Shown here piece by piece: positions 253 through 26,577 of a DNA stretch of 64,000 nt. The notes under the pieces were generated by a model. That model was not told where the DNA came from. It searched no databases and saw nothing but the letters and a program-made list of their open reading frames with translations. The number at the start of each line of letters is the position of its first letter. The stretch's first letter is position 1. This DNA is from Mya arenaria (taxonomy: Eukaryota; Mollusca; Bivalvia; Myida; Myidae), in NCBI RefSeq assembly GCF_026914265.1, contig NC_069125.1:74587546-74651545 (forward strand), given 5' to 3'. A program made the translations under genes and the position numbers.

Positions 253-3200
253 TTAATCACCTTTATTAGCTCCACCCTTGACCCCTGCTCCGCCTCCCAT
301 ACCGCCCTTGCCGCCGCCCATACCGCCAGCTCCACCAGCGCCCATACCGCCCTCACCTACGAAGTCAAAGATAACTGTATTTCGAGTAATATAAGGAAAT
401 AGTTACACTCATTGATATGTACTCGGTGTCACAATTAACGGTAATAGCGTAACCTGAATAAAACAATTTCACGGAAGTATGCTACCAACGCTGTTTTATA
501 ACGTCTCAAATAATGGCAAAATGTATATTTTAATAACACATGTATATACTCATTAGGTGGTTCTAATTCTTATTAATGCGGTCGGGCAAATAGGTCGGAA
601 ATCACTTGATGGTTTACCATTAATCATATAATTTAGGCAACATAACACTACTGTACCTCCTCCCATACCGCCGCCCATGCCACCACCGGGCATCATCATC
701 ATGGGCATGCCGCCTCCCATTTTGCCGCCACCAATTCCTCCGCCCATCATTGGCATACCGCTGCCCATGCCACCACCGGGCATCATCATCATGGGCATGC
801 CGCCTCCCATTTTGCCGCCACCCATTCCTCCGCCCATCTTTGACATACCACCTCCCATAGCTAAATATTGTAAAACAACAATATAAACAAAAATGGTATT
901 GTACTGAAATGTTTAAACACAATCGAAAACATGTTACATGTAGATAGACTATATAAAATCTTTACCTCCGTTTCCACCGCCCATTCCTCCAGCGCCGCCC
1001 ATGGGCATCATCATCATCATTGGCATACCGCCTCCCATACCGCCTCCCATACCACCGCCCATGCCGCCGCCCATTTTACCGCCTCCCATTGCCCCCATAC
1101 CGCCGCCAGGCATCATCATTGGCATACCGCCACCCATTTCACCGCCTCCCATAGCACCGCCCATGGGCATACCGCCTCCCATTCCGCCGCCCATTTTACC
1201 GCCTCCCATGGCACCGCCTCCCATAGCACCGCCTCCATTGGCACCACCCATCATCATTTGCATCATCATCTGTGGCATTATTATTTATTTAGTCTTTAAG
1301 ATTCATTATTGCAGATTAAGTCAATATAATGTTCTAGATTTAAAACAGCTGAAAGTATTTTGATTTTTTTTTGTCGAAACTCTTTATTTTGTTTGTTTTT
1401 TGTTAATCCGTTTGTGTAAGTATGGAAAATTATAAATTAAATGTACCTGGTCCATCATGGCCATGCCGCCTCCCATTCCACCTTTACTGCCACCCATGCC
1501 GCCGCCCATGCCACCGCCCATCCCTCCGCCCATGCCTCCGCCCATACTCCCAGTGCCGCCCATGGGCATCATCATCATCATGGGCATAGCGCCCATTGGC
1601 ATGCCGCCTCCCATACCACCGCCCATGCCGCCACCCATATTACCGCCCATTTTTCCACCGTCCATTGCTCCCATACCGCCGCCGGGCATCATCATGGGCA
1701 TGCCACCTCCCATGGCACCGCCTCCCATAGCACTGCCCATGGGCATACCGCCTCCCATGGCACCGCCTCCCATATTACCGCCCATCTTTCCACCGCCCAT
1801 TGCTCCCATACCGCCGCCGGGCATCATCATGGGCATGCCACCCCCCATGGCACCGCCTCCCATAGCACCACCCATGGGCATACCGCCTCCCATTCCACCA
1901 CCTTGGCCGCCTGAAATTCGGATACACATTGGATACACATTGACCATGACTGTTTTTATTTGTTCAATAAATACTATTTAAAGTGATTGATTTGCTAGAA
2001 ATAAAAGTAAAACCATTGTCGTATCAAAATATATACAATATAAAAACAACCTACCTCTCCTGCTCGCATAGCGCTTGTATCCTGAAACCAAACCATAACG
2101 GGTTGTTAGTTTACTAACTAGAAGAAAACTGACACCTTGGATACTTTAAATCTACGTCGAAGCTACTTTAAAATATCATTTATTAATATGACTGTTTTTA
2201 TAACTATCCGAATTCGTCAAATACAATTTAAATTTTAGTAAATAATGTGTAGGCCTTTATTTTATCTGCATATTGCTTACTTTTTCCGCCGCGGCCACCT
2301 GCAAGATAAAGTGAAACATGTTAATACAAATATAAACGCATATATTTAGATAATAACATATTAGATAATAACATATCTAGAAAAATATCTAAGGTACAAG
2401 GATCTATACACTTAAATGATCTGGTAATATATAAAATTAAAGTTCTTTATAAATAAACTTTTAAATTCCCCTCCGAAAATACTAAAAAAAGTTCCAAACG
2501 TACCGCCCATAGCGCCACCCATTCCACCGGGCATACCGCCTCCCATGCCGCCGCCCATTTTACCCATTCCACCTGCAAAAGCAAAATCAAAGATGCCATC
2601 GACGATATTCTGTGTACTTAAATAATGTAAAAAAAGAAATGCATTAGAACAAGTAAAAAAACTCAGATGTATTTTTTTTATTGAAAGATAAACAGACACT
2701 TACCTATTGGCATCATGGGCATTCCACCGCCCATGGCTCCCATACCGCCCATGGGCATACCGCCACCGGGCATCATCATTCCTCCCATGGGCATGCCGCC
2801 GCCCATTCCTCCCATGGGCTTACCGGCGCCCATGCCGCCACCCATGCCGCCGCCCATGCCACCGCCGGGCATCATCATCATGGGCATACCGCCGCCCATT
2901 TTTCCGCCGCCCATTCCACCGCCCATCATTGGCATTCCGCCTCCCATCATTGGCATACCACCACCCATTCCACCGCCCATCATTGGCATGCCGCCACCCA
3001 TACCTCCCATGGGCATACCACCGCCCATTCCTCGGCCACCGCCGCCACCTGAAATTATATGCTAGGAAATGAAACAAATCTGCAACGTATAAGCCACGTA
3101 AATGATACCAATCATTTTTTTTCTGTGTATAAAAGTACTAAAATAAAAATAAGAGTCAAATCCTTGTGAGTTGTTCATGTTCTTGCGTGATAAACACCAA

Positions 3201-4097
3201 AAAAAGGGAAATATCCTTTAAATTTTCAGAAAAGATAAATATGGATTAAAAGTATTGATAACTAACAAATGAATAGTTACTGCAAACATACGGTTTCATA
3301 TTTAGAAAAGCTTTGCCAATCAAAGCATTTCAACAAATTATCAATCTAGTTAAATTGCCAATTTGACAACAAAGAGTATATTAGGATATAATTTGGATTA
3401 GATTGATTAAGGTTATGTAGTAGTTAAGATTTCGATATGAAATTGAATTAAGGCATTCGGAACTCCTTTGCCATTTTCCATCGAAAACAACCTCGGATGT
3501 ATGCCGCTTCATCAGAAGAAGTAGTTCGTAAACATTAAATAATGGCATTAATTATTTGTAGTGTTTTTACGTGTATTTTTTATATCTAAGTTTTAATTGA
3601 CTACCAGTGAAGTGTTTTATTGCATAAATAATTAAGATTCCCAAGAGTAAAGTCATCATGTTTAACTGCTAAATTGAAACAACTGCGCGATCTACTTATA
3701 TCATGTCCCATAGCGAGATTTTCCTGCAAAACTTGTTAGTCCCATATGGACGACTTACAATATCAGAAAACTTTACATTTAACTACACTGATCGTATCTT
3801 CAATGTAGTTAAATGTAAAGTTTTCTGATATTGTAAGTCGTCTATATACATACCCCCCCCCCCCCCCCCCCCCCCGATGTTGTTTTTCGGTGGGGATACG
3901 GCCGAGTAATTCCGAATGTGAAGTAAGGTAATTTGGATATAACAGATCTGTCTCCCTTGATTATGTGCAGTATGCTTACAAACATAAACTATTTATATTA
4001 ATATGATCTAGCAGTACTTATATCATGTCCCATAGCGAGATTTTCCTGCAAAACTTGTTAGTCCTATCGCAAATTACAATACTACAAAAAGTTAAAA

Positions 4098-4141
<44 letters not shown>

Positions 4142-4308
4142 GCTTATGCATTTTACAATGACGAAAAATCAGTACCGATTTCTGACTTTGGCACGTTTAG
4201 GTAACGAAATTTCTTTCAAATTATTAAATAATTAAAAATATGTTTACCTCTGTAGGCGAAAGAAATGGCAAACAATGCCGATATCAGGGTGATTCGAAGT
4301 GGATTCAT
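253..4308 (-). CDS. GM1: secreted Gly/Met-rich repeat protein, 9 coding exons
   Basis: Hand-spliced exons (minus strand, order of translation): 4308-4248, 3048-2704, 2572-2504, 2298-2281, 2081-2055, 1910-1447, 1269-966, 860-657, 356-253. All junctions are GT-AG and the sum is 1,596 nt, giving 531 aa plus TAA. Exon 1 encodes a signal peptide (MNPLRITLISALFAISFA, cut probably before YRG). The rest is runs of GGGM, MPMMMMPGG, GGKMGGG and similar, by eye roughly half Gly and a quarter Met, without Cys and almost without acidic residues. A basic block RYKRYASRR at residues 165-173 splits the chain into an N-terminal part of about 145 aa and a C-terminal part of about 358 aa. The tail ends in GVKGGANKGD. 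No enzyme domain is visible. Composition recalls methionine-rich nacre proteins and Gly-rich shell or byssal matrix proteins (family knowledge, not a database hit); a structural extracellular role is inferred. GM2 at 21.6-26.3 kb is its tandem paralogue. Confidence 0.9.
3693..3742 (+). repeat. 50-bp exact direct repeat, copy a (b at 4015-4064)
   Basis: The same 50 bases occur at 4015-4064, one copy inside MITE-2 and the other in the flanking intron. Perfect identity in otherwise diverged non-coding DNA suggests a recent local copy, for example templated repair synthesis. Confidence 0.9.
3744..3847. repeat. Long hairpin (44-nt inverted repeat)
   Basis: Arms 3744-3787 and 3804-3847 are reverse complements with one mismatch, separated by a 16-base loop. 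The near-perfect match suggests recent origin. It lies inside MITE-2, just before a C23 tract. Confidence 0.9.
3853..3875. repeat. C23 homopolymer
   Basis: Twenty-three consecutive C, directly after the hairpin. On the minus strand this is a G-run capable of quadruplex formation within GM1 intron 1. Exact length may be affected by sequencing slippage. Confidence 0.9.
4015..4064 (+). repeat. 50-bp exact direct repeat, copy b
   Basis: Partner of 3693-3742, located in intron 1 of GM1 outside MITE-2. It is probably the source copy because it sits in the ancestral intron sequence. Confidence 0.85.
4097..4140. repeat. (AAT)n microsatellite
   Basis: About 14 AAT units in GM1 intron 1. No other feature overlaps it. 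Confidence 0.9.
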
Positions 4309-4519
4309 CTTTGTAGCTTCCTGTGAATAAAATTAAAACAGTGTTATAACTTAGTAATATACGACCTACGTTCTTTATCCCGAGAATACAAGACGTTAGC
4401 TTAATTGTCCTGGATGCATGAATCAATGGATTTGCTAGAATATCTATTTTGCAAAGAGCATTGCAATGAAACGTTACAACATTTACATAAATATGACATA
4501 CACTATACACACTACTTAC

Positions 4520-4573
4520 TGAAAGACGTTTGAAGCAAGTTAGATGAGGTCTGTTGTTCACTTAGGCAACCTG
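4520..4573 (-). other. GM1 non-coding first exon (5' UTR)
   Basis: The exon starts about 25-30 bases downstream of a TATA box and ends at TTTCA with donor GTAAGTAG. The matching acceptor (TTTATTCACAG) lies 12 bases before the GM1 start codon, so a short non-coding exon is spliced to the signal-peptide exon. The same arrangement is conserved in GM2, with the exon end and donor position kept. The 5' boundary is inferred from the TATA spacing. Confidence 0.65.
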
Positions 4574-4594
4574 TTGAGTGTGCTTCATCAGTTA

Positions 4595-4603
4595 CTTATA
4601 TAG
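4595..4603 (-). promoter_or_regulatory. TATA box of GM1
   Basis: CTATATAAG on the minus strand, placed about 25-30 bases before the inferred first exon. The paralogue has TATATAAG in the same place, in a flanking segment that is otherwise diverged. A strong TATA box fits a highly expressed, tissue-restricted secretory gene. Confidence 0.65.
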
Positions 4604-5915
4604 CGGCTGGCAGGATGCTCGCGGGGCGACGGAACACTTCACCAATGCGCCCAGTCAGCACTTGCTCCTGAGGGACGTTCAACAATTCGCGCCCGGCGAG
4701 CTTTCAACATTTTTCGGTGACTTAAGTTGAAAATAAGGTTTAACTTTCGTCTGAATTTTTTTGCATGCGGCACGCCGTTTTTTTTTCACATTCAAATATA
4801 TTTCGCAAACAAAATCTTGTGAAACAAGAGCAACAACAATAAAACAACAACAAAACAAAACGAAAACAAGGACGTTGCTCATATCATGCAGAAACCGCAT
4901 TGAACATCTTTATGCATGCTATTCACAAATGTATAAACTTACTTCAGACATTATAACATATTATTGCTATATCCAAAAACATATTGATATACTTAACAAT
5001 TAATTAAAATTTAAGACAATGGGCAGAAGACATATAAGGTCTGGCACCGGGGGCTTAACTAGGTGAATTTATTTCTTTAACTCACAGACGACTGGCTTTC
5101 GCATATTAGACGCAATTTTCAATGGACAGGTGTCTATGGATAACTTTAAAATAACAAGAAAAGTGAATACTTAGTAATAAACATTTCTTTCAACTTTTCT
5201 TAAACTTTGTTGTAAGGAAATCATTTCAATGTCCGTAAATGGATAACACACCTTTAAAAACATGTTTGATAAAGGAATGATAGTCGAACGAATATACAGA
5301 AAATCAACAAAATTATTCGTTACCTTCCAAATGTCGATGGTAAGACGACGTGGCTATTTAAAAAGCTGTGCATACGTGCTGTACGTATAACTACGAGAAT
5401 CTCAGGTTACACGTCTATATAGCGCTTAGCGTAAGTTATGGTCGAGTTAGAATTTTTTATATGCATATGTAAAGTTAAGTATACGTGATTGGTATAAACG
5501 ACAATTTAGGAGAAATGTGGAAAATGTTCTATGCATAGAAGGTCAATAGCAGGTGCTAACTCGCCCTGCCTATTTCAGTAAGCTCAGCATTACGCTGTTA
5601 TTTAAGGTAGATAGATGCAGTGTATACTATAATAAGTAACGTTTAAATTCATGTTTACCGTCAATCGGATTATGATTCGCGTCACTAATGTCTTGCATCA
5701 AAATTCCACTTGTACGTTTAATTTTATTCAAAAGTTTTTTACTATCGGTAATGCAATAGGTGTTTACTTATTAGACAACCCTCAATTTTTTACGGCGGTT
5801 TACTATCCTACAAACAACATATTTTACAAGCACAGAGGTGTTAATCTATAAGGAACATGCAACCCGCTTGTATGGTAACGGTCCACGTTTAAATGGCGTA
5901 GGAAACGTTAAACCA

Positions 5916-6779
5916 ATGAAAGGGAAGTCAAACATTTATTAAACAAGATGCTTAATTGCCAAGGGCGGACTTAATCTCGTTTAACGTCATGTCAATTGGA
6001 TTCCAACGGCGAGTTATTTAAGCAGAGTGCTATTCTTGGGGACCACAGGAAAAACTTACCTACTTAACTGCTTTTGCAAAGGATTCCTTTTCTTTTTCTT
6101 ACAAATAAATAATCTGAAAGATAAAATGAAAAAGAGCTAGGAATATTAAATTCAAGATAGTGCACATGGTTTAAAAATTCCTTATACACCCACAAAAAAG
6201 TGGTTTGTCCCGCTTATTCGTCAGTCCATCGCGGGACAATAAGACAAATTTAGTACAGAGCATAACTTGTAAATCAGTAAAGAATTGAACTTGGTATGTT
6301 GATAGATGTAAATCAGGAGATCATGCATGTACTTCAAATTGTTGTTGTTTATTTTCGTTTTAGCACAATTAAACTAACTCAACACAATAAAAGTTTCTTT
6401 CATGATGGCTCGGTACATGGTGAAGAGTTATACGTAGATTATGCAAGTCATGTAATGATTTTCGTCGGCAGCTAAAATAGGATGAATGTCCTCCCGTCCC
6501 TTCGAGAAATGAAAGTGCTGAACGCGTTCAAAGGGTGAATGCGCGGAAAACGTAATTTTACTTTGTTTTACAATTCTATCAAAAATAGTCTAATCGAAAA
6601 TATTTTGAGAAGCCTAAAACTGTAACCGGTATGTGCCTGTGATTATCTAAGAATAGGTAATGTAAAATGATGATTTCTTTAATACAATTAGCTAATTTCA
6701 TAAAAGTAAATGATAAACCTATATGAACTAGGTTATATGAACATTGCTTTCATATAAAACAAAACAAGTTAGTAAATTA
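5916..6779. other. Intergenic, nothing recognised
   Basis: AT-rich sequence between the end of segmental duplication copy 1 and a LINE fragment. No open frame with family resemblance, RNA gene or ordered repeat was seen. Confidence 0.5.
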
Positions 6780-6785
6780 AATCTT

Positions 6786-7482
6786 ACAATCGATGGAACA
6801 GCATTAGAAAATGTGACGGTGCAAAAATTACTTGGAATCTATATTAAATAATAACCTAAAATGGCGTCCGCAAATAGAAATTGTTTGCAAAAAAATGAAC
6901 TGTAAAATATCACTTTCGAAACGTCTAGTGTTCTACCTCAATGATGAGATGAAACGTTTGTTTTACAATGCATATATCCTTCCAATTTTAGATTATTGTT
7001 GTCATATTTGGCGCAAAGGAAACTCAAGTTACTTACATAAAGTTAAATTCTTGCAAAATAGGGCTGCAAAAATCATTCTTAAAATTCCTAAACGATCATC
7101 TTCAAATGGATTGTTACAAGAACTTCCATGGCTAACGTTTACAGACAGGTGTAAATATCACTGTGCAACCCATGTCTATGATACCCTTACTGGAAAGGCC
7201 CCGGGGTAAATGTCTGAATTGCTAATCTTTGCAAATAATGAACACTATTCTCTAAGATCAACTTCAAAACAAGATTTAGTTTTGATACAAACACCGCGAA
7301 CTAACTATTTCATGGATTCCTTTTCGTACTACAGTATGAAGGTTTGGAATACTATTCCGGATGAAATAGGAAATGCAAAAAAGTTAAACACATTTAAGCA
7401 TAATTACAAAGTGGACCTCTTGAAATGTGCATATCATAAGTTTCAAAAAGGTTTATCATCTTTTCATTATCTTAAAGATTGA
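6786..7482 (+). pseudogene. LINE-C ORF2 C-terminal remnant
   Basis: Reads as the end of a LINE ORF2 protein, about 230 residues, in two overlapping frames with one internal stop. There is no YADD polymerase motif in the fragment, so it is a dead 5'-truncated copy. Confidence 0.75.
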
Positions 7483-7790
7483 AATAACTGTTGTTTTTAT
7501 AAATTGTTGTGTTTTATTGAGTGTATGTCGGCGTGTACATGATGTATATCCAAATAACTTAAATTGTTATGTTAATTAAACATGATTTGTATAGAATAAT
7601 TATATTCAAAACATCAATAGTTCTTGTATAGGAATGTATAAGTGCGATGCAGATGTTTTATGATTTACCAAATGCATTTTGTTTTTGTTTGTTTGTTTTT
7701 CTTCATAGAAGGCCACATTGAAAATATGATGTTGTTATGGTTGAACCTGTAATTATGTCATAATGTGTCTATACCTTCTCTAAATAAAGA

Positions 7791-7841
<51 letters not shown>
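7791..7841. repeat. (TTA)n microsatellite, LINE-C tail
   Basis: About 17 TTA units directly after AATAAAGATA. It is interpreted as the 3' tail of LINE-C, possibly expanded after insertion. Confidence 0.85.
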
Positions 7842-7842
<1 letters not shown>

Positions 7843-7850
7843 GCAAGTTT

Positions 7851-9040
7851 ATCGGTAGAGTTAAATTAATTAAATGAAAACCGATATTGGCTGAGGACGT
7901 GTTGACTAATTTTTTAGTCTTTTAGTCAACACACTTCAATTTTCAGCGTAATTATCTATAATTATATATTTCCCTTGGTTCCTCACCAAGAGCTTTTTAA
8001 GATTCTTCCTCCTTTTTTGAAACCCCAGCGCATTAATTATTTTAACATGTCAAAAAGTAAATCTGACGATACCTAATTTCAATTTGCGGTACTTAAAACT
8101 GTAGGCCTACTGCCTAACCAGATCTTGCGTTATCTTTAAAAGTATACAAGCTAATTTTACTAAGGTTTGTGGTTAGATAGTTATAATGAGAATACGTTCT
8201 TATTTTATGCACATCATTTTTGAATTTATTTTAACAGTATGTTGCTGAAATGCACATGCATTTTTAAACCATTGTGCTACTTTGTTAAAATCGAAAAAAA
8301 ATTATCTGATTTTCAGTGATAGTAATGTATGAAAAGTGATGAAATGTTTCAGTTCCGGTGCTCAGGTCTAAAGTCTTATTTTATATATATTCTGTGCAAC
8401 ACCAGGCTGTTGTGTGTTACAGGAATGATGGAGACGTGGGTTTACATTATAGATTCCATCAAGGTATGATAGAAGATGACATACTCACAGATGAAAAACT
8501 ACAGACAGGTGGAAAGTGATTCCACGTCATAAGCACATGTATACAATTACGGGTGTTGCAAGCCATTTTTGGGTTACGGTCTGACTGAAATATGTTAGAT
8601 ATTTCATGTTTCGATTTACACAGTTTTAAACAAAACAGCCTGACATAAGAAAGTGTATGTACATGGCAATACCAAATCCACAAATAAGTGTTAAGTATTC
8701 AAACCATAGCCATTTAGTGCATCATCCTCATATGAATGTTGCTGTGTGTTACAGCTGTATGATCGGCAACTAAATAAAGCTGCAAGTCTGCAGCTGCAGT
8801 TGGAAAACCAAAGGAAGCCCGCCAACAATCTAACCAGCTGAACACCACAATGGAGACCCAGCAACAATAGAACCATCATTATAATCAGACAGCGTACCAA
8901 CACACATACATGAATCACACACACACAGAGCATGGTATTAGTCACATCTCATAGAAAATCTACATTCGAGATTGTTGGACCTAGATTGCAATATATGCTC
9001 TATGAGAATTTCAAACGTGCCATTCAAAACTGAAGTTAAC
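7851..9040. other. Intergenic, nothing recognised
   Basis: No coding, RNA or mobile feature could be supported. Short open frames (for example 8459-8683 and 8691-8945 on the minus strand) have low-complexity translations without any family resemblance. Confidence 0.5.
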
Positions 9041-9565
9041 TATCATTGTTGAGGCTACTATACCACTTTTACATAGTAGAGTCCAAACATGTATTCAATA
9101 ACCTTGAGATCCACAGAGTCTCCTGCAAGGGAAGGCGATTTTACCTCACTTTAACATGGTAGAGTCACATAGTGATCGACAACCTTTACAGGTCCGCGCA
9201 ATCTCCTGCCAGTGTTCAGTGCTTCTATCCCATTCTTACATGGTAGATCCCAGCATGTAATGAACAACTTGAAAAGGTCCGCGAAGTTAATCTATCCCAC
9301 TCTTACATGGTAGAGTCTCGTAGGATTCAACAACATGGAGAGGTCCGATGTTTCTCCTGCCGAGGTAAGTTTTCCCATCCAACTCTTACATAATACAGTC
9401 TTAACAGATAATCAACAGCCTGGAGAGGTCTGAGGAGTCTGCTGTTATGGTAGGTTCTTCTACCCCATCTTACATGGTATATCACCAGCAGGTGATCAAT
9501 AACAACGAGAGACCCGCGGAGTCTCATGCCAGGGTAGGTTCTTCTATCAAACTATCATGTGGTGA
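9040..9565 (+). repeat. Degenerate tandem repeat, unit about 85-90 bp, about 6 units
   Basis: Units share the core ACATGGTAGAGTC, then CAACAACCTGGAGAGGTCC, then GTCTCCTGCCAGGGTAGG, then CTTCTATCCCACTCTT. They differ by many substitutions and indels, so the array is old. Small open frames across it on both strands are by-products of the repeat. Confidence 0.75.
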
Positions 9566-9689
9566 CTATTGGAAAATAACTGGGCTCACTTGTCAAGATA
9601 GTACCTTATTACGAGATACGACGAGGTGTCGCTTGTCAGAGCTATGTCTATAGGAACAAGGTTGCGGTTACATTTGATCATTGGATAAC

Positions 9690-12079: not shown

Positions 12080-13620
12080 TGTTGATGATTTCATTAGTAA
12101 ATTAAAACTTTGTGATTGGTCTGAAATGTTTAAGATGGAATCTGTACAATCGTCTTGGATTTTGTTTAAAGATACATTTTTATCAGTTTTAAATAACAGT
12201 GCTCCTATTAAAGAAGTACGTTTAAAACAAAGAAGTGAGCCTTGGATTGATTCTGATATATTGGACCTTATAAAGAATAGGGATTTTTATAAGTTTAAGT
12301 TTAGGAAAACAGGCAATACAGATTTTTACATTTTTACAAGCTCTTTTGCTCATTTAGAAATAAAGTTCAAAAGGCTGTTAAGAAAGCCAAATCTGAGTAT
12401 ATATGCAACAAACTAGAAGAAAATAAACACAATCCAAAAAGTCTGTGGTCTCAGTTAAAGGATCTAGGATACAGTAATAGTAGTAAATCGTCACCTTATG
12501 TAGTTCTTAACATAGGTGACAAACTGTGTTTTGACGCTAAAACAATAGCAAATCATTTTAATCATTTTTTTACTACGGTCGCATCAGTTCTAGTGGAGAA
12601 ACTGCCTGTTGCATCAAATTTGTTCAGTGTTTCATCTAGTGTTTTTCAAAACTTCTATAAGCAGAGAAACCCTGAGTCAAAATCCTTTAAACTACATACT
12701 GTTTCAGAGCAATTTGTCCTGAATGAATTATCCAAACTAAATTGTTCAAAACGCACTGGGCTTGATGATATTCCTTCTAGATTTCTAAAGGATGCAGCTC
12801 CTTTTATTAAGATACATATTACATTTTTAATAAATAGTTCTATTGTTAATGAAAGCGTGCCAAATGACTTAAAAATTGCCAAGGTCAAACCGCTTTTTAA
12901 GAAAAATAGTAGGTCAGAAGTTTCAAATTATAGGCCTGTTAGCATTTTATCAATTGTGTCCAAAATTCTTAAGCGAGCTGTCTACACTCAGCTGGAATCT
13001 TTCTTAGTAAAAAATGGTTTGTTGTATGAATATCAAAGCGGGTTCCGTGGTAACTACTCTACCGACTCCTGCCTAATACACCTTACAGATTATATACGTA
13101 GACAATCTGCTAAAGATTTATTTACTGGCATGATCATGTTGGATCTACAAAAAGCTTTCGACACAGTAGATCATGATATTTTATGCCGAAAGCTACAGGT
13201 ATTGGGTGTGGAGTCGGTGGAGTGGTTTCGCTCATACCTAACCGACAGAAAACAGTCTGTTTATGTTAACAATACCAAATCAGATTTTGATCAAGTTGTG
13301 TGTGGTATACCTCAAGGAAGTATATTAGGTCCTCTGCTGTTTTTATGCTCCATTAATGACATGAATACAAGCATCAGTTCTAAATGCAAACTTATACTTT
13401 ATGCAGATGACAGCGCTATCTTATTTTCTCATAAAGACCCTGATATTATTAGACAAGTTCTTGGTCAAGAATTGCAAAACTGCAGCATGTGGTTAACTGA
13501 TAACAAATTATCCCTTCATTTAGGAAAGACAGAATGCATTCTTTTTGGCTCCAAACGTAAACTTGGCAAAATAGGGGATTTCAGCATTCAATGTAATGGC
13601 CATGAAATCAAGTCTCAATA
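12080..13620 (+). pseudogene. LINE-A ORF2, block 1: linker and reverse transcriptase
   Basis: The linker (DWSEMF, then W-x2-F) is followed by RT motifs: LDDIPSRFLKD, NYRPVSILSIVSKILKR, YQSGFRGNYSTDSCL, MLDLQKAFDTVDH, GIPQGSILGPLLF and YADD at 13,400-13,411. The last is the catalytic aspartate pair and is intact. A frame change lies between about 12,400 and 12,590, and a TAA stands at 13,619-13,621. No endonuclease is present, so the copy was truncated on insertion. Confidence 0.88.
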
Positions 13621-13632
13621 ATCAGTAAAATA

Positions 13633-16600
13633 GAAAGGTTATTGATAAAACTGTAAACCAGCACGGCCATGATTTCGTTGAATTCCTATGTGACTCCAAG
13701 TTCTGTGTATTAAACGGCCGTTTTCAACGTGATCTAGATATCTTTACGTCTATTTCGAGAAAAGGGAAAGCTGTTGTTGATTTTATTTGTGTCCCACACG
13801 ATATTTATCAGCGCTGTAAAAACTTTAAAGTTATAAACCCCCATGACATTATTGATCAACAAGGATTACAGGGATTATTGAGTGAGCGTTCACGCGTTCC
13901 TGATCACTGCGCATTAAGTGTATATATTGACATGGGCTATAGTGCACCTTTATCTGGTACAAATACTGCTACAGAGACCCCCCGCGAAGCTCGATTTAAC
14001 CTACGGCGTATCCCGTCTGACTTCATGGACAGTGAGAGGGTCAGAACTGCTTTACTTTCTCTTATCATGCAAATATAAAACTCAAGGGAGACTCAAGAAT
14101 CTATTGACAGTCTATACACAACTCTTTGCGATGTGATTTTGGTTGAAATGAATGATAAAAATCCGAAATTGTCAAGTTCAAAAAGAACATCAAAAAGACT
14201 GAAACACACAAAACCATTCTGGAACAACGAATTGCAAGATCTTTGGAATGAGCTCAGAGAGCGTGAAAATAGATTCCTTAAGTGCAGGGATGACAGGACA
14301 TTAAGAGTACGTCTGCACTCGGAATATGTTACAGCCAGGAATAAGTTTGACAAGACTCTCCATAGAACAGAACGTGTTTATAGAAAGGACAAAGCCATTG
14401 AAATCGAGACCTTTGAGGCAAATAACCCCAAAGAGTTTTGGAGCAAAATCAAAGCGCTGGGACCACGGAGAGACTCGCGCATCCCTACTGAAGTGTACGA
14501 AGCCGACGAATCTGTTACGAGTGATAAAAACAGAGTGTTTGACCGGTGGAAAGAGGACTTCAAAGACTTGTACAATTGCCAGGAATTTGATAATTTCGAC
14601 AATGAACATTACAACCGTGTAAAGTTACATAAACTGTTACTTGAGAACAATATAAAATGTTCCCCTATATGAAACGAACGAATCATTGAATAACAACATT
14701 TCATTAGAAGAGATAGCATTTATAATACAGAAATGTAAATCTGGTTCGGCCTGCGGAATAGACAATTTACCGTATGACGTATTGAAAAATCCACCAGTTA
14801 TTGCCGTGCTACAGCAATTATTTCAATTAGTGTTCGACACCAGCATTATCCCGTCAATATGGAGAAAGGCTATTATTTACCCAATACTTAAGGATCCTCA
14901 ATCTGATAAACGAATACCAATGAACTATAGAGGGATTAGCCTTTTGTCGTGCGTTAGCAAAATGTATACTGCATTTTTGAATAAACGGCTCTCGAAGTAC
15001 CTTGAAATTGAAAATCTTCTTGCGGATGAACAAAACGGATTTCGGGCAAATAGATCGTGTGAAGATCATGTATTCACCTTAAATAGTGTTGTTAGAAACA
15101 ACAAGAACGTCTTTGCGGCATATATCGACCTGCGACGTTGTTTTGATTATATTGATCGAGACATGCTATTGTACAAACTGTTGCTGACTAGAGTAGATGG
15201 AAAGTTCTACAACTCTGTCAAGAATATCTATGCCAGTTCCTCATCTTGTGTCCGGATAAATAACCCTCACACCGACTGGTTTCACTGTGTAACAGGCGTG
15301 AAACAGGGCTGCACGTTGTCGCCGACACTTTTTGCCATCTTCGCCAACGATCTCGTCAAGGAAATAAATGACCTGGGCTGTAGCGTAGCTATTGGAGAAA
15401 ATCAGGTATCAATGCTCATGTACGCTGATGACATAGTGCTTATGGCTGACAGTGAGGAAAAATTGCAGTCAATGCTAGATGTTCTCAACAGCTGGTGGAA
15501 ACGTTGGCGTGTGATGATTAATACGTCAAAATCAAAATGCATGCACTTCCGGAAAGGACGTACTCAACGAACACAGTTTAATTTCCACATCGGTGAAAAT
15601 GTCCTTGAAATCGTGGACAAATACAAATACCTCGGTATCGTTTTCCAAGATAAAGGCGACTTCTCGTTCACTTGTGAAGGTCTCTCAAAAGGGGCCGGCA
15701 GAGCACTTGGAAGTGTCATCAGTAAAGTACACACACTGAAGGACCTTGGATTTAAACCCTATGAAAAATTTATAACGCATGTGCTGTGCCCGTCATGGAT
15801 TACTGTAGTTCGGTGTGGGGATACAAGCAATTTCAATCATCGGATAACGTCCAAAACCGTGCCCTACGTTACGCTCTTGGTGTTCATCGATTTGCTCCAA
15901 TACCCGCCCTAACCGGGGACACCGGATGGATTCCCACCCGCTACCGCAGATGGAGTAATATGCTACGCCTCTGGAATAGACTCGTGCTAATGGACCGAGA
16001 CCGGCTATGCGCGCAAGTATTTGAAACGGACTATAACAGATGTACTACAAACTGGTCAAGCGAGGTCAAGGACATCATGATGCATATCGGATTATTGGAT
16101 AAATTCAATGCTAAGCTACCTGTTGAAATCCCGACTGTGCATAAGCTTGTGCGAAATCATTACATTAATAACATTTGGTCAACAGATGTAGGATCCATGC
16201 CAAAACTACGAACATACCGTGAATTTAAACAAGAATTTTAATGTGAAAAGTATTTGAGCTTAGCTCTTAAGAAGAACGAACGTTCATTACTTGCTCAATT
16301 TAGGACTGGTATATTGCCACTACGAATAGAAACAGGTCGTTATTTAGGTGAACCAGTCAACTCCAGACTCTGTAAACTTTGTGATTCCCAAGAAGTGGAA
16401 AACAAGTGCCATTTTGTCCTAAAATGTCAATTGTACAATGCTGCAAGAACTACATGTTTAGGACCACTTATGTCCAACGATGAATTTGTAAACCTCTCTG
16501 ATACAGGCAAAATCACATATCTCATGCAAAAACATGTCAGACAGTTAGCAAAATATATTGTGAAGGCATACACCATAAGGAGAAATACGTTATATTCTTA

Positions 16601-17462: not shown

Positions 17463-17539
17463 CGATTATTTCGTCTAAAAATAATCGCTGTTATTGTTTT
17501 GATCAAGTCTACTTTCGTTTTATTGTTATGGTATTTCGG

Positions 17540-17876
17540 CATTCGGAACTCCTCGGCCATTTTTTTAGAAAACAACCTCGGATGTATGCCGGTACATCAG
17601 TTGAAGTAGTTTGTATTTTTTTTTAATTATATTGTTAATTAAAATTAGTGTTTTAGAGTTGTGTTTATTGATCTAAGTTTAAATTGATTGCCAGTGAAGT
17701 GTATTATTGCAAACATAATTAAGATTTTCAAGAGTTAAGACATAAAGTTTAACTGCTAAATAAAATTACTACGCGATCTACTTGCTGCGGACTTAAACGT
17801 ACCTCTTTTTGAGTATGTAAACCGTCCAAATACATCCGAGGTTGTTTTCGATAAAATGGCCGAGGAGCTCCGAATG
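17540..17876. mobile_element. MITE-1, Mutator-like, nested in the SGNH element
   Basis: A 337-bp element with long terminal inverted repeats (about 50 bp; CATTCGGAACTCCTCGGCC at the left, its complement at the right) and an exact 10-bp target duplication GGTATTTCGG (17530-17539 and 17877-17886). It is non-coding. Its left 240 bp match MITE-2 in GM1 intron 1. Confidence 0.88.
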
Positions 17877-17983
17877 GGTATTTCGGAACACCTCGGATGC
17901 CAACTTCCTTTTCCGGTTTCACACCGATCATCATATTGAACAAAATAAATACTGACCATAAATTCAGCGGAATCGCATACATT

Positions 17984-18598
17984 ATGCCGGGCAGAGGTAA
18001 AGGCAGGAAGAGGAAAGCTGTAGAGACCGTTGAGGCACCCGTTGAGTTGGAAAGCACGGACGTTTGGTTGGTTGGTGACTCCCTTATTCATTGGGCGGGT
18101 CATTACGCTCAGGAGAATGGACGGGAAAATTTGGGGCTTCCACATCAACTGGACTGGATGGGTGTTAGGGGGATGCATTGGGAGCAGTTCACGCACAAGA
18201 TGCAATTGAAGGTCCTTTTTTCGGAGCCACCAAAGGTTATTTTCATCCATTTAGGGGGAAATGACATTGAATTATTGACAGTGTGTAGGATCATGAATAA
18301 AATTAAATTGGGGTTCCGGTACATGCGGGCTGCGTTTCCTGATTGCCAGCTCATCTGGGTGGATATTCTGCCTAGGCTTGTTTGGGCATCAGGGAGCCCG
18401 GAGGACTGCAAAAGGCGCCGACTCAATAGGCATGGTCGGCTTGTAGCGTCCTCTTTAAAAGGTCACCAGGTGGGAGTGGAGATTGATAACACCACCCCAG
18501 GTTTCTTTAGGCCGGATGGTATACATCTCAGTCAAATTGGTCTTGAGATGATGCTTGATAACCTTAGGGATGCTGTAATACGGGTTTTTTCACAGTAA
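17984..18598 (+). CDS. SGNH/GDSL-type hydrolase of a mobile element
   Basis: Uninterrupted 204-aa ORF. After a basic N-terminus (MPGRGKGRKRK) come the SGNH blocks in order: VGDSLIHWAG (block I, nucleophile Ser, about residues 34-43), HLGGNDIE (block III, Gly/Asn, about 101-108) and DGIHLSQIG (block V, Asp-x2-His, about 180-188). The conserved WVDILPR and RRRLNR stretches between them are typical of the element-borne family. Predicted activity is esterase or lipase-like; the substrate is unknown. Start chosen at the ATG 17984 because upstream codons enter 5' flank. The flanking element is otherwise non-coding. It could be expressed cargo or a domesticated gene, but its position inside a nested transposon favours cargo. 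Confidence 0.8.
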   Translation: MPGRGKGRKRKAVETVEAPVELESTDVWLVGDSLIHWAGHYAQENGRENLGLPHQLDWMGVRGMHWEQFTHKMQLKVLFSEPPKVIFIHLGGNDIELLTVCRIMNKIKLGFRYMRAAFPDCQLIWVDILPRLVWASGSPEDCKRRRLNRHGRLVASSLKGHQVGVEIDNTTPGFFRPDGIHLSQIGLEMMLDNLRDAVIRVFSQ

Positions 18599-19389
18599 AT
18601 AATAAACGCACGACTACTTGTCTGAGATTCGGATAAATATTTGGGGGATAAATTTTGGTGTTAAAATTTATTGTGGCGGAAAAATTCAGGCAGCTGACAG
18701 TCAACTTGGTATGCACTATGTTTCAATTTTTGGGAATAACTTGTAATAGTAACTAGGGGTTTCCCCTTTCAGAGGCTCGACTTAACGGTTGAGAGATCCA
18801 ACGGCTGGGGTTACAACTGTGTTACTTCAAAATTTAAGATTTTTGAGGAGTTGGGTTTTGCCCGGATATTTTGGTAACTCCCAGCTACTCCTTTGGCAAC
18901 TTTGTATTTTTGGTAGGGATATTTGGATTGGATATAGGGATTGGAGGATGGATTTGAAATGCGGATTTGGATATAGCACTGCGGATTGCACTGTGGAATG
19001 TGCGGGATTGTGAGGAGTATGGATTTGGGAATGGGCTTGTCCCTGTAGCGTTCATTGTTTCATTTCAATAAGGCGGGTTAAGTGCATATCGGGTTGACCG
19101 TCGGTTGTCTTAGCTTTGGTAGGGCCATTAAAGAGCAGAGCCTACCTTGGGGCTTATGTTGCGGCCTATATACTCCACATATTACATTTACTTATAACCT
19201 TTTTTGATATTATTTTGATCTGTGATGAAAGAGCTAGTCATAATAAACTCTTGACCTCTCATTTGTTTGATATTAAACATGTAATAAATATTTGAACTGT
19301 TTATGAATAGTTATTTTAGCTGTGTTAAACAACAAGTCTGGATATGGTATTGTTGTTTATTTTAGGTGTAACAGACGTGGCATAATACA
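18599..19389 (+). other. 3' non-coding part of the SGNH element
   Basis: AATAAA follows the SGNH stop within a few bases and again near 19,240. GT-rich sequence follows with no convincing ORF; a 74-codon open frame at 18789-19013 looks accidental. Confidence 0.5.
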
Positions 19390-19391
19390 AT

Positions 19392-19562
19392 AATGGTGGT
19401 TTTACAGCAGCTTCTTTTTATTATAATGGTATACGGGATTGGAACATGCTTCCGAATAACATCAAAGACACAGAATCAAAGTATGTTTTTAAGAAATTAG
19501 TCAAAACTCACCGCTTAAATGAGATGGAGAACTTTGAAAAGTCTGTCTTTTTGTATTCATAA
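19392..19562 (+). pseudogene. LINE-A ORF2, block 3 (C-terminus)
   Basis: Reads FYYNGIRDWNMLPNNIKD and ends NFEKSVFLYS-stop. This matches the usual LINE C-terminal 'FFYNAI..WN.LP' motif and completes the protein interrupted at 17,462. Confidence 0.85.
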
Positions 19563-19574
19563 TTTTTATGTATT

Positions 19575-19866
19575 AGATAAATATAAGTGCGCTTTCTAAG
19601 AATACGCACAATTTTTATAAAGTTGCTTTGGTAATTTTTCAATATTCCTTAACTATTTGTATAATTGTGTGGTATATTATACAATTATGTGATACTGATA
19701 GTAGTTTATTTGTGATGAATGTCATATATTAATTTATTTTATCTGAGTATATGATATAATATTATATAATACTGTTCAAATAGATAAATATAAGTGCGCT
19801 TTCTAAGAATACGCACAATTTTTATATAGTTGCTTTGGTGATATAATATTATATAATACTGTTCAC
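19575..19866. repeat. Direct repeat within the LINE-A 3' UTR
   Basis: About 57 bp (TAGATAAATATAAGTGCGC ... GTTGCTTTGGT) occurs at 19,575-19,632 and 19,783-19,840 with one or two differences. A second motif, GATATAATATTATATAATAC, occurs at about 19,752 and 19,840. This is probably a duplication of 3' UTR structure. Confidence 0.75.
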
Positions 19867-20199
19867 TAAATCATTAAATGCCAACTTTAATACCTTAGAC
19901 ATGGACCCCGTTGGAAATAAGCTTTTGTACTTGTGCAAATCTTTACGGGTTATCCTGTGCAATGTCATTTATTATGTTAAACTTTATTTGGTAAAACTTT
20001 ATTTGGTAATAAATTAGATAGTTTTATCATTTACACCAGAAGTAATACTTGTTTTAGTAGATCTAGTATTATGTATTTCATGTTAAGCTTTCTGTGATAT
20101 AACTTATTAGGACTCTAAATATCATGCAAATACAATATGTGATATATCTTATATTGATGTAAAATGTACTGTTATTGACATAATGCACGAATAAAACTA

Positions 20200-20219
20200 C
20201 TACTACTACTACTACTACT
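20200..20219. repeat. (ACT)n tail of LINE-A
   Basis: A short ACT microsatellite directly after AATAAA, taken as the LINE-A 3' end. Confidence 0.75.
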
Positions 20220-20222
20220 TTG

Positions 20223-21330
20223 GTCATTGTATACTACTTATGTTGATTGGTTCGATATTAGGTATAACTGAAGTCTTTCAGAGTGTAATAGTTTTGAGAT
20301 ATATGTAGCAAGTATTTCTAGTATACTAGAGACACATTTGTGATAACTGTCATAAACACGCTTTAGAAGAAAGCGATTTTTATATTTTGTTCAAATTGTT
20401 GTGTCTGATCCTGATGACCCCTAGCATTGTCCTATTTGTCGTTGGTCGGACCCTGGTTTGATCCACTGAGTCTTCATTTACCAGCCTCAAATTCTGTATT
20501 TGTCAACATACTTCGAATAGGAATGTATATGGGATAAATGAATTAGTACCTGGCCATTTAAGCCAAGTATAGCTTTGTCTAATTACATGTGTCATCTCTG
20601 GCGTAAATAACGTTTGAGTAACGGCCCTTAATGTAATGAGAAAAACAAAGCGTTGCCATCCACTTTCTGATTTTGCACGTGTAAACATGCCATCATCCTT
20701 ACGTAACATATGCATTTGTTTTTCAAAACCTACAATACTGCTTGAGGCAGTTTCGATCGTACCACTGCGTGTTCAACTGTTTGTGGTGTCTATGTTCCCC
20801 CGTCACTAGCACTGTGAAACCATTTACCAATGAGCTCTTCCAGGTACAGATCCGTTTGGTTTCATTACTTTCCCATACTCGTGTTTGATATATCTGGTTT
20901 TAATTGACCAGTGTATGCGTTATTTTTCAATAGATATTAATAAAAACAAAACATTTATTGAACATATACAACCCGACAAATATTCAATTGCAAATCTAAT
21001 TTATTAAATACCATATAACAACAATTAAAGTTACATATAAGCCACATGCATGTAGGGTATCTCCGAGGTAGGATAGTCTGCGGTCTTTAGTACAGTACAG
21101 GATCTTGAACACTAGAAGTCACTGTTGGCTGTTGTTCTTTCCGAGTGATACAGAAAGAGTCGAAACTCTTAGACAGTCCCTGCTGCTGCTGTTGCTTACG
21201 ATGATGACGATGCTGCTGATACCACGGGAGATGTCATGCATGCATGTGGACAGGGGACAAGACGAGGGCATTCTGGATTCCCGAGATTGGACGAGTCGTG
21301 AGTCGATACCGTTACCAGAACAAGCACTAG
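20223..21330. other. Intergenic, nothing recognised
   Basis: Spacer between the LINE-A tail and segmental duplication copy 2. Short open frames at 20503-20715 (minus) and 21105-21341 (plus) have no family resemblance. A CTG/GAT-rich stretch lies at about 21,180-21,220. Confidence 0.5.
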
Positions 21331-21579
21331 ACAGCGCCTAATATTTGCCTGCAATGACAAATGAAACTACTATTGCGACTAGATGGAAATATGATTTAAG
21401 CAAAAGCTCTGTTTATATATAATCGCGCGTAGTTTTGAAGGTGATGTGCGCTGGGATGTCCTTTACACATCTGGAAAATAAAAAAATAAAATGTCTGTAT
21501 AATAAAATGCATATAATTCATTGCGATTGCCGAAGACTATTGGAAGAATAATCGACGGAAAACGGATGATAAACATGAC

Positions 21580-24500
21580 TTAATCACCTTTGGGAGCTCC
21601 ACCCTTGCCCCCGGCTCCGCCTCCCATACCGCCATTGCCGCCGCCCATACCGCCAGCTCCACCAGCGCCCATACCGCCCTCACCTACGAAGTCAAAGATA
21701 ATTGTACTTCGAGTAATATACGGAAATAATTGCATACATTGATATTACCTCGGTGTCCTTTTTCTATGTTGTGTATAACTTTGTATACGAGGTATTGGTT
21801 CCCACAATAAACGGTAATTGCGTTACCTTAATAAAACAAATTTCACGGAAGTATGCTACCAACGCTGTTCTATAACGTCTGAAATAATAGCAAAATTTAT
21901 ATTTCATTAATACATGTATATCGAGGGGTGAGTGTCAAAAGATTCTAAGTGACATTAAATGATGAAGAAGATAGAACCTTCTAGTGGTTCTAATTTTGAT
22001 TAATGCGTTCCGACGAATTGGTCGCAAATCTCTTGATGGTTCACCATTATTCATATAATTTAGGCAACATAACGCTACTGTACCTCCTCCCATTGCGCCA
22101 CCCATGCCACCACCGGGCATCATCATCATGGGCATGCCGCCTCCCATTTTGCCGCCGCCCATTCCTCCGCCCATCATTGGCATACCGCCGCCCATGCCAC
22201 CGCCCATACCTAAATGTGGTAAAACAAAAATATAAACAGTAAGATTATTGTTTTGAAATGTTTAAATGAAGTCGAAAACTTGTTATATAGATTATATAAA
22301 GTCTTTACCTCCGTTTCCACCGCCCATTCCTCCAGCGCCGCCCATGGGCATCATCATCATCATTGGCATACCGCCTCCCATACCGCCTCCCATACCACCG
22401 CCCATGCCGCCGCCCATTTTACCGCCTCCCATTGCCCCCATACCACCGCCAGGCATCATCATTGGCATACCGCCACCCATTTCACCGCCTCCCATAGCAC
22501 CGCCCATGGGCATACCGCCTCCCATCGCACCGCCTCCCATTCCGCCGCCCATTTTACCGCCTCCCATAGCACCGCCTCCATTGGCACCACCTCCCATACC
22601 GCCTTCCATAGCACCGCCTCCCATGCCGCCGTTCATAGCACCACCTCCCATGCCGCCGTTCATAGCACCGCCTCCCATGCCGCCGTTCATAGCACCACCT
22701 CCCATGCCGCCGTTCATAGCACCACCCATCATCATTTGCATCATCATCTGTGAATGAACATATTTTTTTAGTCTACACGATTCATTTAAATGCAGACTTT
22801 GACAATATAATGTTTTAGATTTTAAACAGTTGAATGTCTTCTGAAACAAGTGTGTCGGAACTTGATATAAACATTTGTTAATCCGTTTGTGTTAGTATGA
22901 AAAAATAAATATTAAATATACCTGATCCATCATGGCCATGCCGCCTCCCATTCCACCTTTACCGCCGCCCATACCGCCGCCCATGCCTCCGCCCATGCCG
23001 CCGCCCATACCACCAGCGCCGCCCATGGGCATCATCATCATCATGGGCATAGCGCCCATTGGCATGCCGCCTCCCATACCACCGCCCATGCCGCCACCCA
23101 TGCTTCCGCCCATTTTTCCACCGCCCATTGCTCCCATACCGCCGCCGGGCATCATCATGGGCATGCCGCCTCCCATGGCACCGCCTCCCATAGCACCGCC
23201 CATGGGCATACCGCCTCCCATTCCACCCTGGCCGCCTGAAAATCGGATACACATTGAACTTGTAATTTTCAATTAATACCATTTAAAGTGATTGATATGC
23301 TAGAAATACATATAAAACCATTCTAGTTCCAAGACATAGACAATATGAAACCAGCTTACCTCTCCTGCTCGCATAGCGCTTGTATCCTAAAACCAAACCA
23401 TAACATGTTGTTAGTTGAGTAATTAGAATAAAACCGACATCTTGCACACTTTATATTTATTTCGAAGTTATATAACTGAATACTTTGAAACAACCATTTT
23501 TTCATATGACTGTTTTTATAACTATCTAAATCCGACAAATACATTTTAATTTTTTGTTAGTTATTTGTATATCTGCAACATTGCTTACTTTTGCCGCTGC
23601 CACCTGCAAGAGAAAGTGAAACATGTTTAGAAAAAATATACATACGGTATCACGATCTATACACTTTAATGAGCTGGTAATATCTTAATATAATGGCCTT
23701 CGCACTTTTATGAATTAACAATTAAATTAAGTTCCTCACAAAAGACTAAAAAACGTTTCAAACGTACCGCCCATAGCGGCACCCATTCCACCGGGCATAC
23801 CGCCCCCCATGCCGCCGCCCATTTTACCCATTCCACCTGCAAAAGCAAAATCAAAGACGCTCTCGGTGATCTTCTGTGTACTTATACAGTATTTGAAATG
23901 AAATGCATAAGTCCAAGCAAAAAAATCAGATCTAAAAATAATTTTATCGAAAAATGATCAGACACATACCCATTGGCATCATGGGCATTCCACCGCCCAT
24001 GGCTCCCATACCGCCCATGGGCATACCGCCACCCATTCCGCCGCCGGGCATCATCATTCCTCCCATGGGCATACCGCCGCCCATGCCGCCGCCCATTCCT
24101 CCCATGGGCTTTCCGGCGCCCATTCCACCACCGGGCATCATCATTCCTCCCATGGGCATACCGCCGGCCATGCCGCCACCCATTCCTCCCATGGGCATAC
24201 CCCCGCCCATGCCGCCACCCATGGCACCACCGGGCATCATCATCATGGGCATACCGCCGCCCATTTTTCCGCCGCCCATTCCACCGCCCATCATTGGCAT
24301 TCCGCCTCCCATCATTGGCATACCGCCACCCATTCCACCGCCCATCATTGGCATACCGCCACCCATACCTCCCATGGGCATACCACCGCCCATTCCTCGG
24401 CCACCGCCGCCACCTGAAATTATATGCTAGGAAATGAAACAAATCTGCATGGTAAAACACGTCTATGTTAAATAAATAAGATAATTTAGATGTACATTTT

Positions 24501-26259
24501 TATCCACTGCCTAAGCTTTATTAAACGTAAGGTAACACATGGCTCAGAAGTTTAGTTGTACAATTTGATATTCATGAAAACAGTATTCATATAGAAATAA
24601 AAAGCTACGTTAGTTTACGTTAGTTTTTTTTTAAGATTTGTTATGCTCTGTGGATACCTACATCAAAAAGTGAAATATCCATTTTACTTTCCGAATTTTA
24701 AATATGGATTAAATAAATTGTTAAAAATAAATAACATTCGCAAAAATACGTTTACATATTGCACCTTTTTTGACAATTAAAACATGTAAATAAATTATCA
24801 ATCTGACCAAAGTGCCAATCTTGATAATATGACCACAAAGCGTCTATTACGATATGATTTTAATAAGATTTAGGTTAGATTTCGAAATACTGTGTTTTTG
24901 ATTGAATAAGGTAATCTGTACTTGGCGAACATTATATGAGCGTATGGGGTAACCTAGCACTTGGAAATGTTGCGCAAGAAAATAAATGCTCCCCTCTTTG
25001 GAGAATCGCCAGAAACAGTCCAAATGTTCGGCCATTCTGTGTAAAACTCCTGAATGTTATCGGACACGTTGTTTCACGTAAATGTCCACAGCGATGTAAC
25101 CTGTGCAGTTTATTGACTGAAAACATGACTGAACATGTTCTTTGTTTTTGTCATATGAGAGACAAACGGCAAAAGGAATTATGGAACTCTATCATTAAAG
25201 AGTATAGAATTCGCAAGTTTAGCTCATGTCAATGCCCTATGCTGACCAGTGTGCGTATTAAGTGTTTCCTCGGCAAGTAGCTACGATTGCTTAGATAATT
25301 GTGATGAAATGGTTGCATGTGCTAGGTGTTATGCTCAAACTATAGCGCCTTATTTGAATCTACTTTTTGTCTGCATGTAAACTAGTATGCGTTGTACCAA
25401 ATCACATATTAATTATGCATAACTGTATTTTGTATTTTTAATGTGTTGAATTGCATAATTATCAACCACATTAAATTGCATAATTATATAAAATATTTAG
25501 CAGCTCAAACATGTACTATATACATATATTATGTAATATGTTTGTATATGTTTATCTATTGTAAATACGTTTTGCTCTTCATAATAGGAGGAAATCAATA
25601 TATAAATATATATATATATATCTCCCTTAATCATGTGCAATGTGCCTACAAACCAACTATTTGCATTAATATGATATGCTAAAGCAACTGTTTTACTTTC
25701 TAGAAGTTCTTATAAAATACCGAAGATTTTCGAAAATTAAATAACTCAAATGACTTAAAAACGAAAAAATTCTGAACTTTTTGGATAAGGCGTTATTCAA
25801 GAAACTTTCACTATAAGTAGTAGAATGTCAGTATCCTTGGGCCAATTCCTGTTACATCTCATAACAGCAACTTAGAATTCATATTATAGCTTATAACATG
25901 TACAAGAACGATCCAGTGCTGGGTTTGAACCAATGACTGCCGGTTTATGAGCTGTTAACTAGTCAATCCTATCAAAAACTACAATACTTGAACACCGGGA
26001 TCAAAAGAATTATTTTTACTCGAGATTTTTACGAATTTTACAAGGACGAAAAATCAGAATCGATTTTTGACCTTGAGCGTTTTGGTTACCACTAAATTGA
26101 AACCCAAAATCTGTCGAAGTTACGTTTAGATTTAAAAGGTCTCCAGCACTTCATTCGAAATATATTTCATATTGTCAAATAAATAAAGATTTGTTTACCT
26201 CTGTAGGCGAAAGAAATGGCAAACAATGCCGAGATCAGGGTGATTCGAAGTGGATTCAT
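21580..26259 (-). CDS. GM2: secreted Gly/Met-rich repeat protein, paralogue of GM1
   Basis: Hand-spliced exons (translation order): 26259-26199, 24413-23970, 23836-23768, 23603-23589, 23386-23360, 23235-22922, 22747-22309, 22209-22084, 21683-21580. All are GT-AG and in the same phases as GM1; the sum is 1,599 nt, giving 532 aa plus TAA. The signal peptide is identical to GM1. The Gly/Met architecture is the same, with the basic block RYKRYASRR at residues 197-205 and tail GGKGGAPKGD. Specific to GM2: about five tandem AMNGGMGGG-like units in exon 7 (about 22,595-22,735) and a longer exon 2. No catalytic domain. Role as for GM1: probably an extracellular structural or matrix protein; function is inferred from composition and signal peptide only. 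Confidence 0.9.
22595..22735 (-). repeat. Coding tandem repeat, AMNGGMGGG units in GM2 exon 7
   Basis: Five near-identical 27-nt units encoding A-M-N/E-G-G-M-G-G-G. They are absent from GM1 exon 7, so they expanded after the gene duplication. The frame is kept. Confidence 0.85.
24912..25620 (+). mobile_element. LINE-D, 3' fragment in GM2 intron 1
   Basis: Codes for the extreme C-terminus of a LINE ORF2 (24,936-25,280). It has the Cys/His cluster CNLCSLLTENMTEHVLCFC, followed by an AT-rich 3' UTR and a (TA)n tail. GM1 intron 1 lacks it, so it arrived after the duplication. The same domain type ends LINE-B but the sequence is a different family. Boundaries are approximate. Confidence 0.65.
24936..25280 (+). 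pseudogene. LINE-D ORF2 C-terminal remnant with Cys/His cluster
   Basis: About 114 open codons. C-x2-C...H...C spacing matches the zinc-knuckle-like end of APE-type LINEs. No RT remains, so it is a truncated dead copy. Confidence 0.65.
25606..25622. repeat. (TA)n tail of LINE-D
   Basis: A short TA run where the LINE fragment meets sequence shared with GM1 intron 1 (TCTCCCTT...). Confidence 0.7.
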
Positions 26260-26553: not shown

Positions 26554-26577
26554 CTGTTGATCAGGCTTCTTCAGGTG

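Follow-up and report, generated by a model that had tools for sequence, protein, structure and literature searches.

A tandem trio of genes for secreted Gly/Met-rich proteins in Mya arenaria, candidate components of the hinge ligament

What kind of extracellular material would a bivalve build from proteins that consist mostly of glycine (Gly) and methionine (Met)? This question is raised by two genes on the minus strand of Mya arenaria contig NC_069125.1 (RefSeq assembly GCF_026914265.1), here called A and B. They lie in a stretch of 64,000 nucleotides (C4:74587546-74651545), referred to as the window, in whose numbering positions are given. A preliminary description of the window had placed a tandem pair of complete nine-exon genes at 253-26259. 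Both models were confirmed: nine coding exons separated by GT-AG introns form a single open frame from ATG to stop in each gene (Table 1), and all introns of the coding region are phase 1, except intron 6/7, which is phase 0. The two genes are real, but the cluster is a tandem trio and not a pair, as a third complete gene, copy C, is located outside the window, 14.6-18.4 kb from its edge (-18357 to -14601 window-relative, minus strand, nine coding exons, 541 amino acids). The start codons of C and A are 18.9 kb apart. In C the codon at which A and B stop is altered, and the frame extends by 14 residues that carry the one Cys and the fourth Tyr of this copy.

Gene copies and coding constraint

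When the genome (1.216 Gb, 18 contigs) was searched with a pattern made of the microexon and its borders (at most 3 mismatches), three sites were obtained, all within the cluster, and none with the reversed control; a more diverged copy would escape this pattern. In a blastn comparison of a 104-kb stretch with itself, the repeated unit measures about 5.6-6.6 kb and appears as broken pieces; weaker homology extends farther out. Upstream of the start codons, a block of about 200 bases holding TATATAAG can be aligned across all three copies, which suggests that TATATAAG is part of a TATA promoter common to A, B and C. In the copy alignment, C seems to be without the intron in the 5' untranslated region (5'UTR) of A and B. 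Public annotation of M. arenaria may already list the trio as uncharacterised or Gly-rich proteins.

The copies might be no genes at all but a GC-rich triplet repeat tract that is open by chance in several frames, and further reading frames of the same tracts are indeed open. Against this, all 32 single alignment gaps between copies that fall into exons are multiples of three, compared with 12 of 58 in introns under 600 nt, and the same holds for exon length differences (14/14 multiples of 3; introns 7/24). Differences by codon position show an excess at the third position (A-B 9/12/43, A-C 17/19/57, B-C 19/20/70), and the ratio of nonsynonymous to synonymous divergence (dN/dS), estimated with a simple Nei-Gojobori count from an alignment rich in repeats, was 0.174 for A-B, 0.267 for A-C and 0.225 for B-C. 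Identity over aligned bases between copies reached 86.5-98.4% in exons and 100% in microexon 5, and was 65-87% in introns 2-8. Because of the frame-keeping exon gaps, the third-position excess, the dN/dS values and the conserved splice sites and microexon, A, B and C are supported as real protein-coding genes under purifying selection. A noncoding repeat was rejected on the frame-keeping gaps and the codon-position pattern, and we consider it extremely improbable. The synonymous divergence of A and B (0.14) lies at the low end of their divergence in introns 2-8 (13-22%), which may reflect exon conversion, or merely repeat alignments that pick the best register.

Protein composition and the Tyr block

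The signal-peptide protein sequence is the same in A, B and C, exon 1 being 95-98% identical between copies. Assuming a signal peptide of 18 residues (cleavage set by eye), mature chains of 513 (A) and 514 (B) amino acids and about 45 kDa are predicted, in agreement with the signal peptide plus about 510 residues, mostly Gly and Met, that had been described. Gly accounts for 49.2/50.4% and Met for 27.9/27.8% of A/B, followed by Pro (6.2/6.0%) and Ala (5-6%). A, B and C are strongly basic, with isoelectric points (pI) of 10.8, 10.6 and 10.2; Lys and Arg together number 24 in A and 19 in B. The preliminary description had both Cys and acidic residues lacking. For Cys this is correct in A and B, which are also free of Trp and His, but each contains five Asp or Glu residues. 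The only two Phe of each protein are inside the signal peptide.

The motif GGGM occurs 45, 41 and 35 times in mature A, B and C, compared with maxima of 30, 30 and 24 in 500 shuffles of each, and the commonest Met recurrence among spacings 1-12 is four residues in all three proteins. Among the 308 stop-to-stop frames of at least 60 amino acids in the window, the ten highest in Gly+Met all hold exons of A or B. That the proteins belong to no recognised family or domain also held: no Pfam family was matched by A or B, the two proteins scanned, at an expectation value (E) of 1 or below, and no PDB chain by residues 1-178 of A at the same threshold. MNPLRITLISALFAISFAYRGG and RYKRYASRR are proposed as queries for other heterodont genomes.

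Tyr is found at positions 1, 148 and 151 of mature A and at 1, 180 and 183 of mature B, thus only at residue 1 and in the RYKRYASRR block encoded by microexon 5. All 27 nt of this microexon are identical in the three copies. Where introns 3-5 and their microexons are aligned, it also accounts for the longest stretch without any difference among the three copies, which measures 32 nt and consists of AG, microexon 5 and GTA; the runner-up has 15 nt. Around microexon 4, the splice borders fall into stretches of 12 and 11 nt that are likewise the same in all three copies. A gene model skipping both microexons was rejected, as this conservation favours their inclusion; a transcript that skips them is a possible splice form, since skipping preserves the frame. 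Microexons 4 (18 or 15 nt) and 5 (27 nt) are frame-neutral and together bear two of the three mature Tyr.

Known Met-rich proteins and the candidate function

Met-rich bivalve matrix proteins are already a known kind (abductin, LMP, MRNP34, NU-5), and they are compared here by their published descriptions. Abductin of the scallop hinge combines a domain rich in Gly and Met with three conserved Tyr, a pair of which is proposed to cross-link, and is thought to be a random coil (PMC13052691). The Gly/Met tails of GroEL/Hsp60, likened to abductin by the authors, adopt polyproline II (PMC12571646). A and B resemble abductin as bivalve extracellular proteins dominated by Gly and Met (49-50% and 28%), with few Tyr and a presumed random-coil or polyproline-II chain. 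Three further features of abductin are missing: no GGFGGMGGGX consensus repeat is present, the Phe of A and B being confined to the signal peptide; the Ala-rich N terminus that carries Cys 6 and 10 and Tyr 4 and 20 is absent from both; and Pro is not very low. Conversely, in this contrast by feature description, the MPMMMMP blocks and the internal Tyr block belong to A and B. Membership of abductin was dropped on the absence of the GGFGGMGGG repeat and of Cys and on the 6% Pro. Because these sequence features fail, A and B are kept apart from abductin; they may work like it, yet are not recognisably the same protein. A query with the abductin consensus found nothing in the genome, but this is no evidence of absence, because a comparable (GGGM)12 query listed 13 matches and missed all three known genes; composition queries of this genome are unreliable in both directions.

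LMP and another Met-rich protein of the Pinctada fucata ligament are similar to A and B by description, being Met-rich, of low complexity and without an acidic-rich region. MRNP34 (methionine-rich nacre protein) is described as rich in Met and Gly by a paper that cites it (PMC5105077) and shares the Met-rich secreted chain, but comes from nacre. The GroEL/Hsp60 C-terminal tails share GGM repeats that populate polyproline II, but these are chaperonin tails of about 19 residues, and kinship is not implied. The analogy that had been drawn was confined to nacre and shell matrix proteins; by composition, abductin and the Met-rich proteins of the ligament, which it overlooked, stand no farther from A and B. 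Four traits of the trio appear to be new: its extreme Met content, its MPMMMMP modules, its arrangement as three tandem copies, and a Tyr/Lys/Arg block encoded by a microexon. Literature searched by repeat strings yielded no GGGM-type mollusc protein, a weak result covering titles and abstract openings.

It is highly likely that A, B and C are structural matrix proteins of some secreted material, and the Met-rich extracellular material of a mollusc that had been proposed is supported. As to which material, we see about an even chance that the trio encodes a basic protein, free of Cys in A and B, that the mantle secretes as an elastomer or scaffold and that most likely resides in the hinge ligament (resilium). 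An elastomer is supported by the signal-peptide-like start, the coding constraint, the modular repeats and the mostly phase-1 exons. Elastomeric proteins alternate repeats for extension and recoil with cross-link elements, and elastin tends to one exon per domain (PMC3291537); in the trio, a single short Tyr/Lys/Arg insert interrupts long hydrophobic repeats rich in Gly, which matches this design. In the Pinctada ligament, the top-scoring insoluble protein is the Met-rich LMP, the identified proteins have no acidic-rich region, a lack that the trio shares, and the matrix showed no chitin (PMC7591529). For the trio, secretion by the mantle would be followed by assembly outside the cell as hinge ligament. 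The GGGM and MPMMMMPGGG blocks would form flexible, partly polyproline-II, Met-lined extensible chains that associate through hydrophobic contact, and covalent cross-links may form at the N-terminal Tyr and in the RYKRYASRR block, comparable to the Tyr proposed for abductin and the Lys of elastin. Because of this elastomer-like design, the parallels to abductin and the Pinctada ligament, and the internal resilium that Mya possesses, the hinge ligament was ranked first and a shell scaffold second.

Several points weigh against the hinge ligament. The GGF repeat, the Cys pair and the low Pro of abductin are all missing from A and B, and one of two further sets of Gly/Met-containing frames described below, the C13 pair (L059, L060) or the C11 frame (L061), could be the main ligament protein instead. 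Proteins with Met-rich regions also occur in Pinctada nacre and prisms, each of the three microstructures of Pinctada having yielded them in its insoluble fraction (PMC7591529); de novo sequencing of Laternula shell nacre likewise yielded M- and G-rich peptides (PMC5105077). Because Met-rich proteins are found in these layers too, composition alone cannot choose the tissue. The same occurrences favour an insoluble scaffold of mineralised shell layers similar to NU-5 or MRNP34, in which self-assembled Met-rich chains would form an organic sheet for carbonate growth. Such a scaffold is possible but clearly less probable, since A, B and C are strongly basic and have no acidic block, and NU-5 is described with Glu-rich regions (PMC7591529). 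Mya shells, moreover, are non-nacreous.

That the trio serves as structural protein in some other secreted product, be it periostracum, siphon sheath, larval byssus or mucus, is rather unlikely: many such materials use low-complexity Gly-rich secreted proteins (PMC4944945), but no feature seen here favours any one of them, with no direct test aimed at them. Still more doubtful is a secreted protein that binds soft metals (Cu, Ag) or buffers oxidants, its Met clusters acting as ligands or being sacrificed as thioethers. Its sole basis is composition, namely the MPMMMMP clusters and the 28% Met of A and B. Neither protein contains His or Cys, the long regular repeats and mostly phase-1 exons look structural, and a Pfam scan of ten window frames, not directed at metal handling, showed no protein with such a role among them. 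Met oxidation could be compatible with a structural protein, too.

Within the hinge-ligament reading, a more specific proposal is that the trio is the Met-rich resilium rubber of a heterodont clam, built independently of abductin, with cross-link density set by alternative inclusion of microexons 4 and 5 and with Met as a tunable thioether/sulfoxide side chain. In this full form we hold it to be a speculative and improbable idea. Methionine sulfoxide has reportedly been found in surf clam resilium, and amino-acid surveys of ligaments are said to exist; in the literature searched, no work was found that joins resilium with methionine, or hinge ligament with methionine sulfoxide. For heterodont clams, we know of no Met-rich protein of the resilium that has been sequenced to date.

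Surroundings of the cluster and implications

Further Gly/Met-containing stretches were selected by a frame filter (more than 90 amino acids, Gly+Met above 28%, Met above 4%), which L059, L060 and L061 passed and for which L055, L056, L057 and L058 contained no passing frame. L059 and L060 have in common a (GAGMGGGM)n region and a Cys-containing block, GGFCGGEEC...RRRTGRNEDIRMYEMF; they are 57% identical over their best stretch, with one stop inside it, and the N-terminal part of L059 is Ser/Phe-rich. This C13 family resembles the C4 trio by its repeat only and is set apart by its lower Met (7% and 11%) and by the Cys-containing block. L061 carries GGYGGYGNM repeats, which we take to recall shematrin or periostracum proteins. 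No Pfam family was matched by L059 or L061. Six weak genome matches on C8 and C11 (E 0.34-0.69) included none that was Gly/Met-rich in a coarse test (best forward frame above 20% Gly+Met).

Between A and B, two reverse-transcriptase frames (RVT_1) lie on the plus strand at 12305-13621 and 14656-15912, of the type without long terminal repeats by their look, together with a 247-residue frame (17855-18598, plus) that has a weak GDSL-lipase-like match under the curated cut-off. A dynein heavy chain gene occupies 30907-47710 on the minus strand (Pfam Dynein_C, AAA_8, AAA_7 and AAA_6; five frames matched, one solely below the curated cut-off), and dynein-like frames continue to about 60832 by eye. 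Long tandem arrays are located at 28678-29654 and 62704-63908, with periods of 52 bases and of 73/152 bases.

Table 1. Coordinates of the trio and of further Gly/Met-containing frames (window numbering unless a contig is named; aa, amino acids)
Feature	Position	Strand	Remarks
Gene A	253..4308	-	531 aa; stop codon at 253, start codon at 4308
Gene A exons 1-5	4248-4308, 2704-3048, 2504-2572, 2281-2298, 2055-2081	-	
Gene A exons 6-9	1447-1910, 966-1269, 657-860, 253-356	-	
A exon 1	4248..4308	-	signal peptide MNPLRITLISALFAISFA (by eye), YRG next
A microexon 4	2281..2298	-	18 nt
A microexon 5	2055..2081	-	27 nt; with last base of exon 4 encodes RYKRYASRR
A upstream	4309..4603	-	aligned with B and C; limits by eye
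TATATAAG upstream of A	4595-4602	-	
A 5' untranslated exon (probable)	3' end 4520; 5'UTR intron 4321-4519	-	limits by eye
Gene B	21580..26259	-	532 aa; stop codon at 21580, start codon at 26259
Gene B exons 1-5	26199-26259, 23970-24413, 23768-23836, 23589-23603, 23360-23386	-	
Gene B exons 6-9	22922-23235, 22309-22747, 22084-22209, 21580-21683	-	
B exon 1	26199..26259	-	signal peptide
B microexon 4	23589-23603	-	15 nt; in-frame 3-nt difference from A
B microexon 5	23360..23386	-	encodes the same RYKRYASRR cassette
B upstream	26260..26585	-	aligned with A and C; limits by eye
TATATAAG upstream of B	26578-26585	-	
B 5' untranslated exon (probable)	3' end 26500; intron 26272-26499	-	limits by eye
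Duplication unit with C	-18883 to -13269	.	blastn self-comparison, broken pieces
Duplication unit with A	-406 (about) to 6202; in-window part 1..6202	.	blastn self-comparison, broken pieces
Duplication unit with B	20929..27294	.	blastn self-comparison, broken pieces
L059	C13:9157000-9161500, frame from 1460		617-aa frame, Gly 30%, Met 7%, signal-peptide-like start
L060	C13:7912000-7918000	-	440-aa frame, Gly 37%, Met 11%
L061	C11:3345000-3349000, frame from 1796		Gly/Tyr/Met frame, GGYGGYGNM repeats

To our knowledge, the hinge rubber of bivalves is known by sequence mainly from one scallop complementary DNA and from the Pinctada ligament proteins. If the trio encodes clam hinge rubber, Gly/Met elastomers exist in more than one design, here with 28% Met, no GGF repeats and a single Tyr/Lys/Arg block encoded by a microexon. 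The trio protein is compact enough in sequence to be tested as a recombinant elastomer, and the trio would make it testable why molluscs invest so much methionine in extracellular materials.

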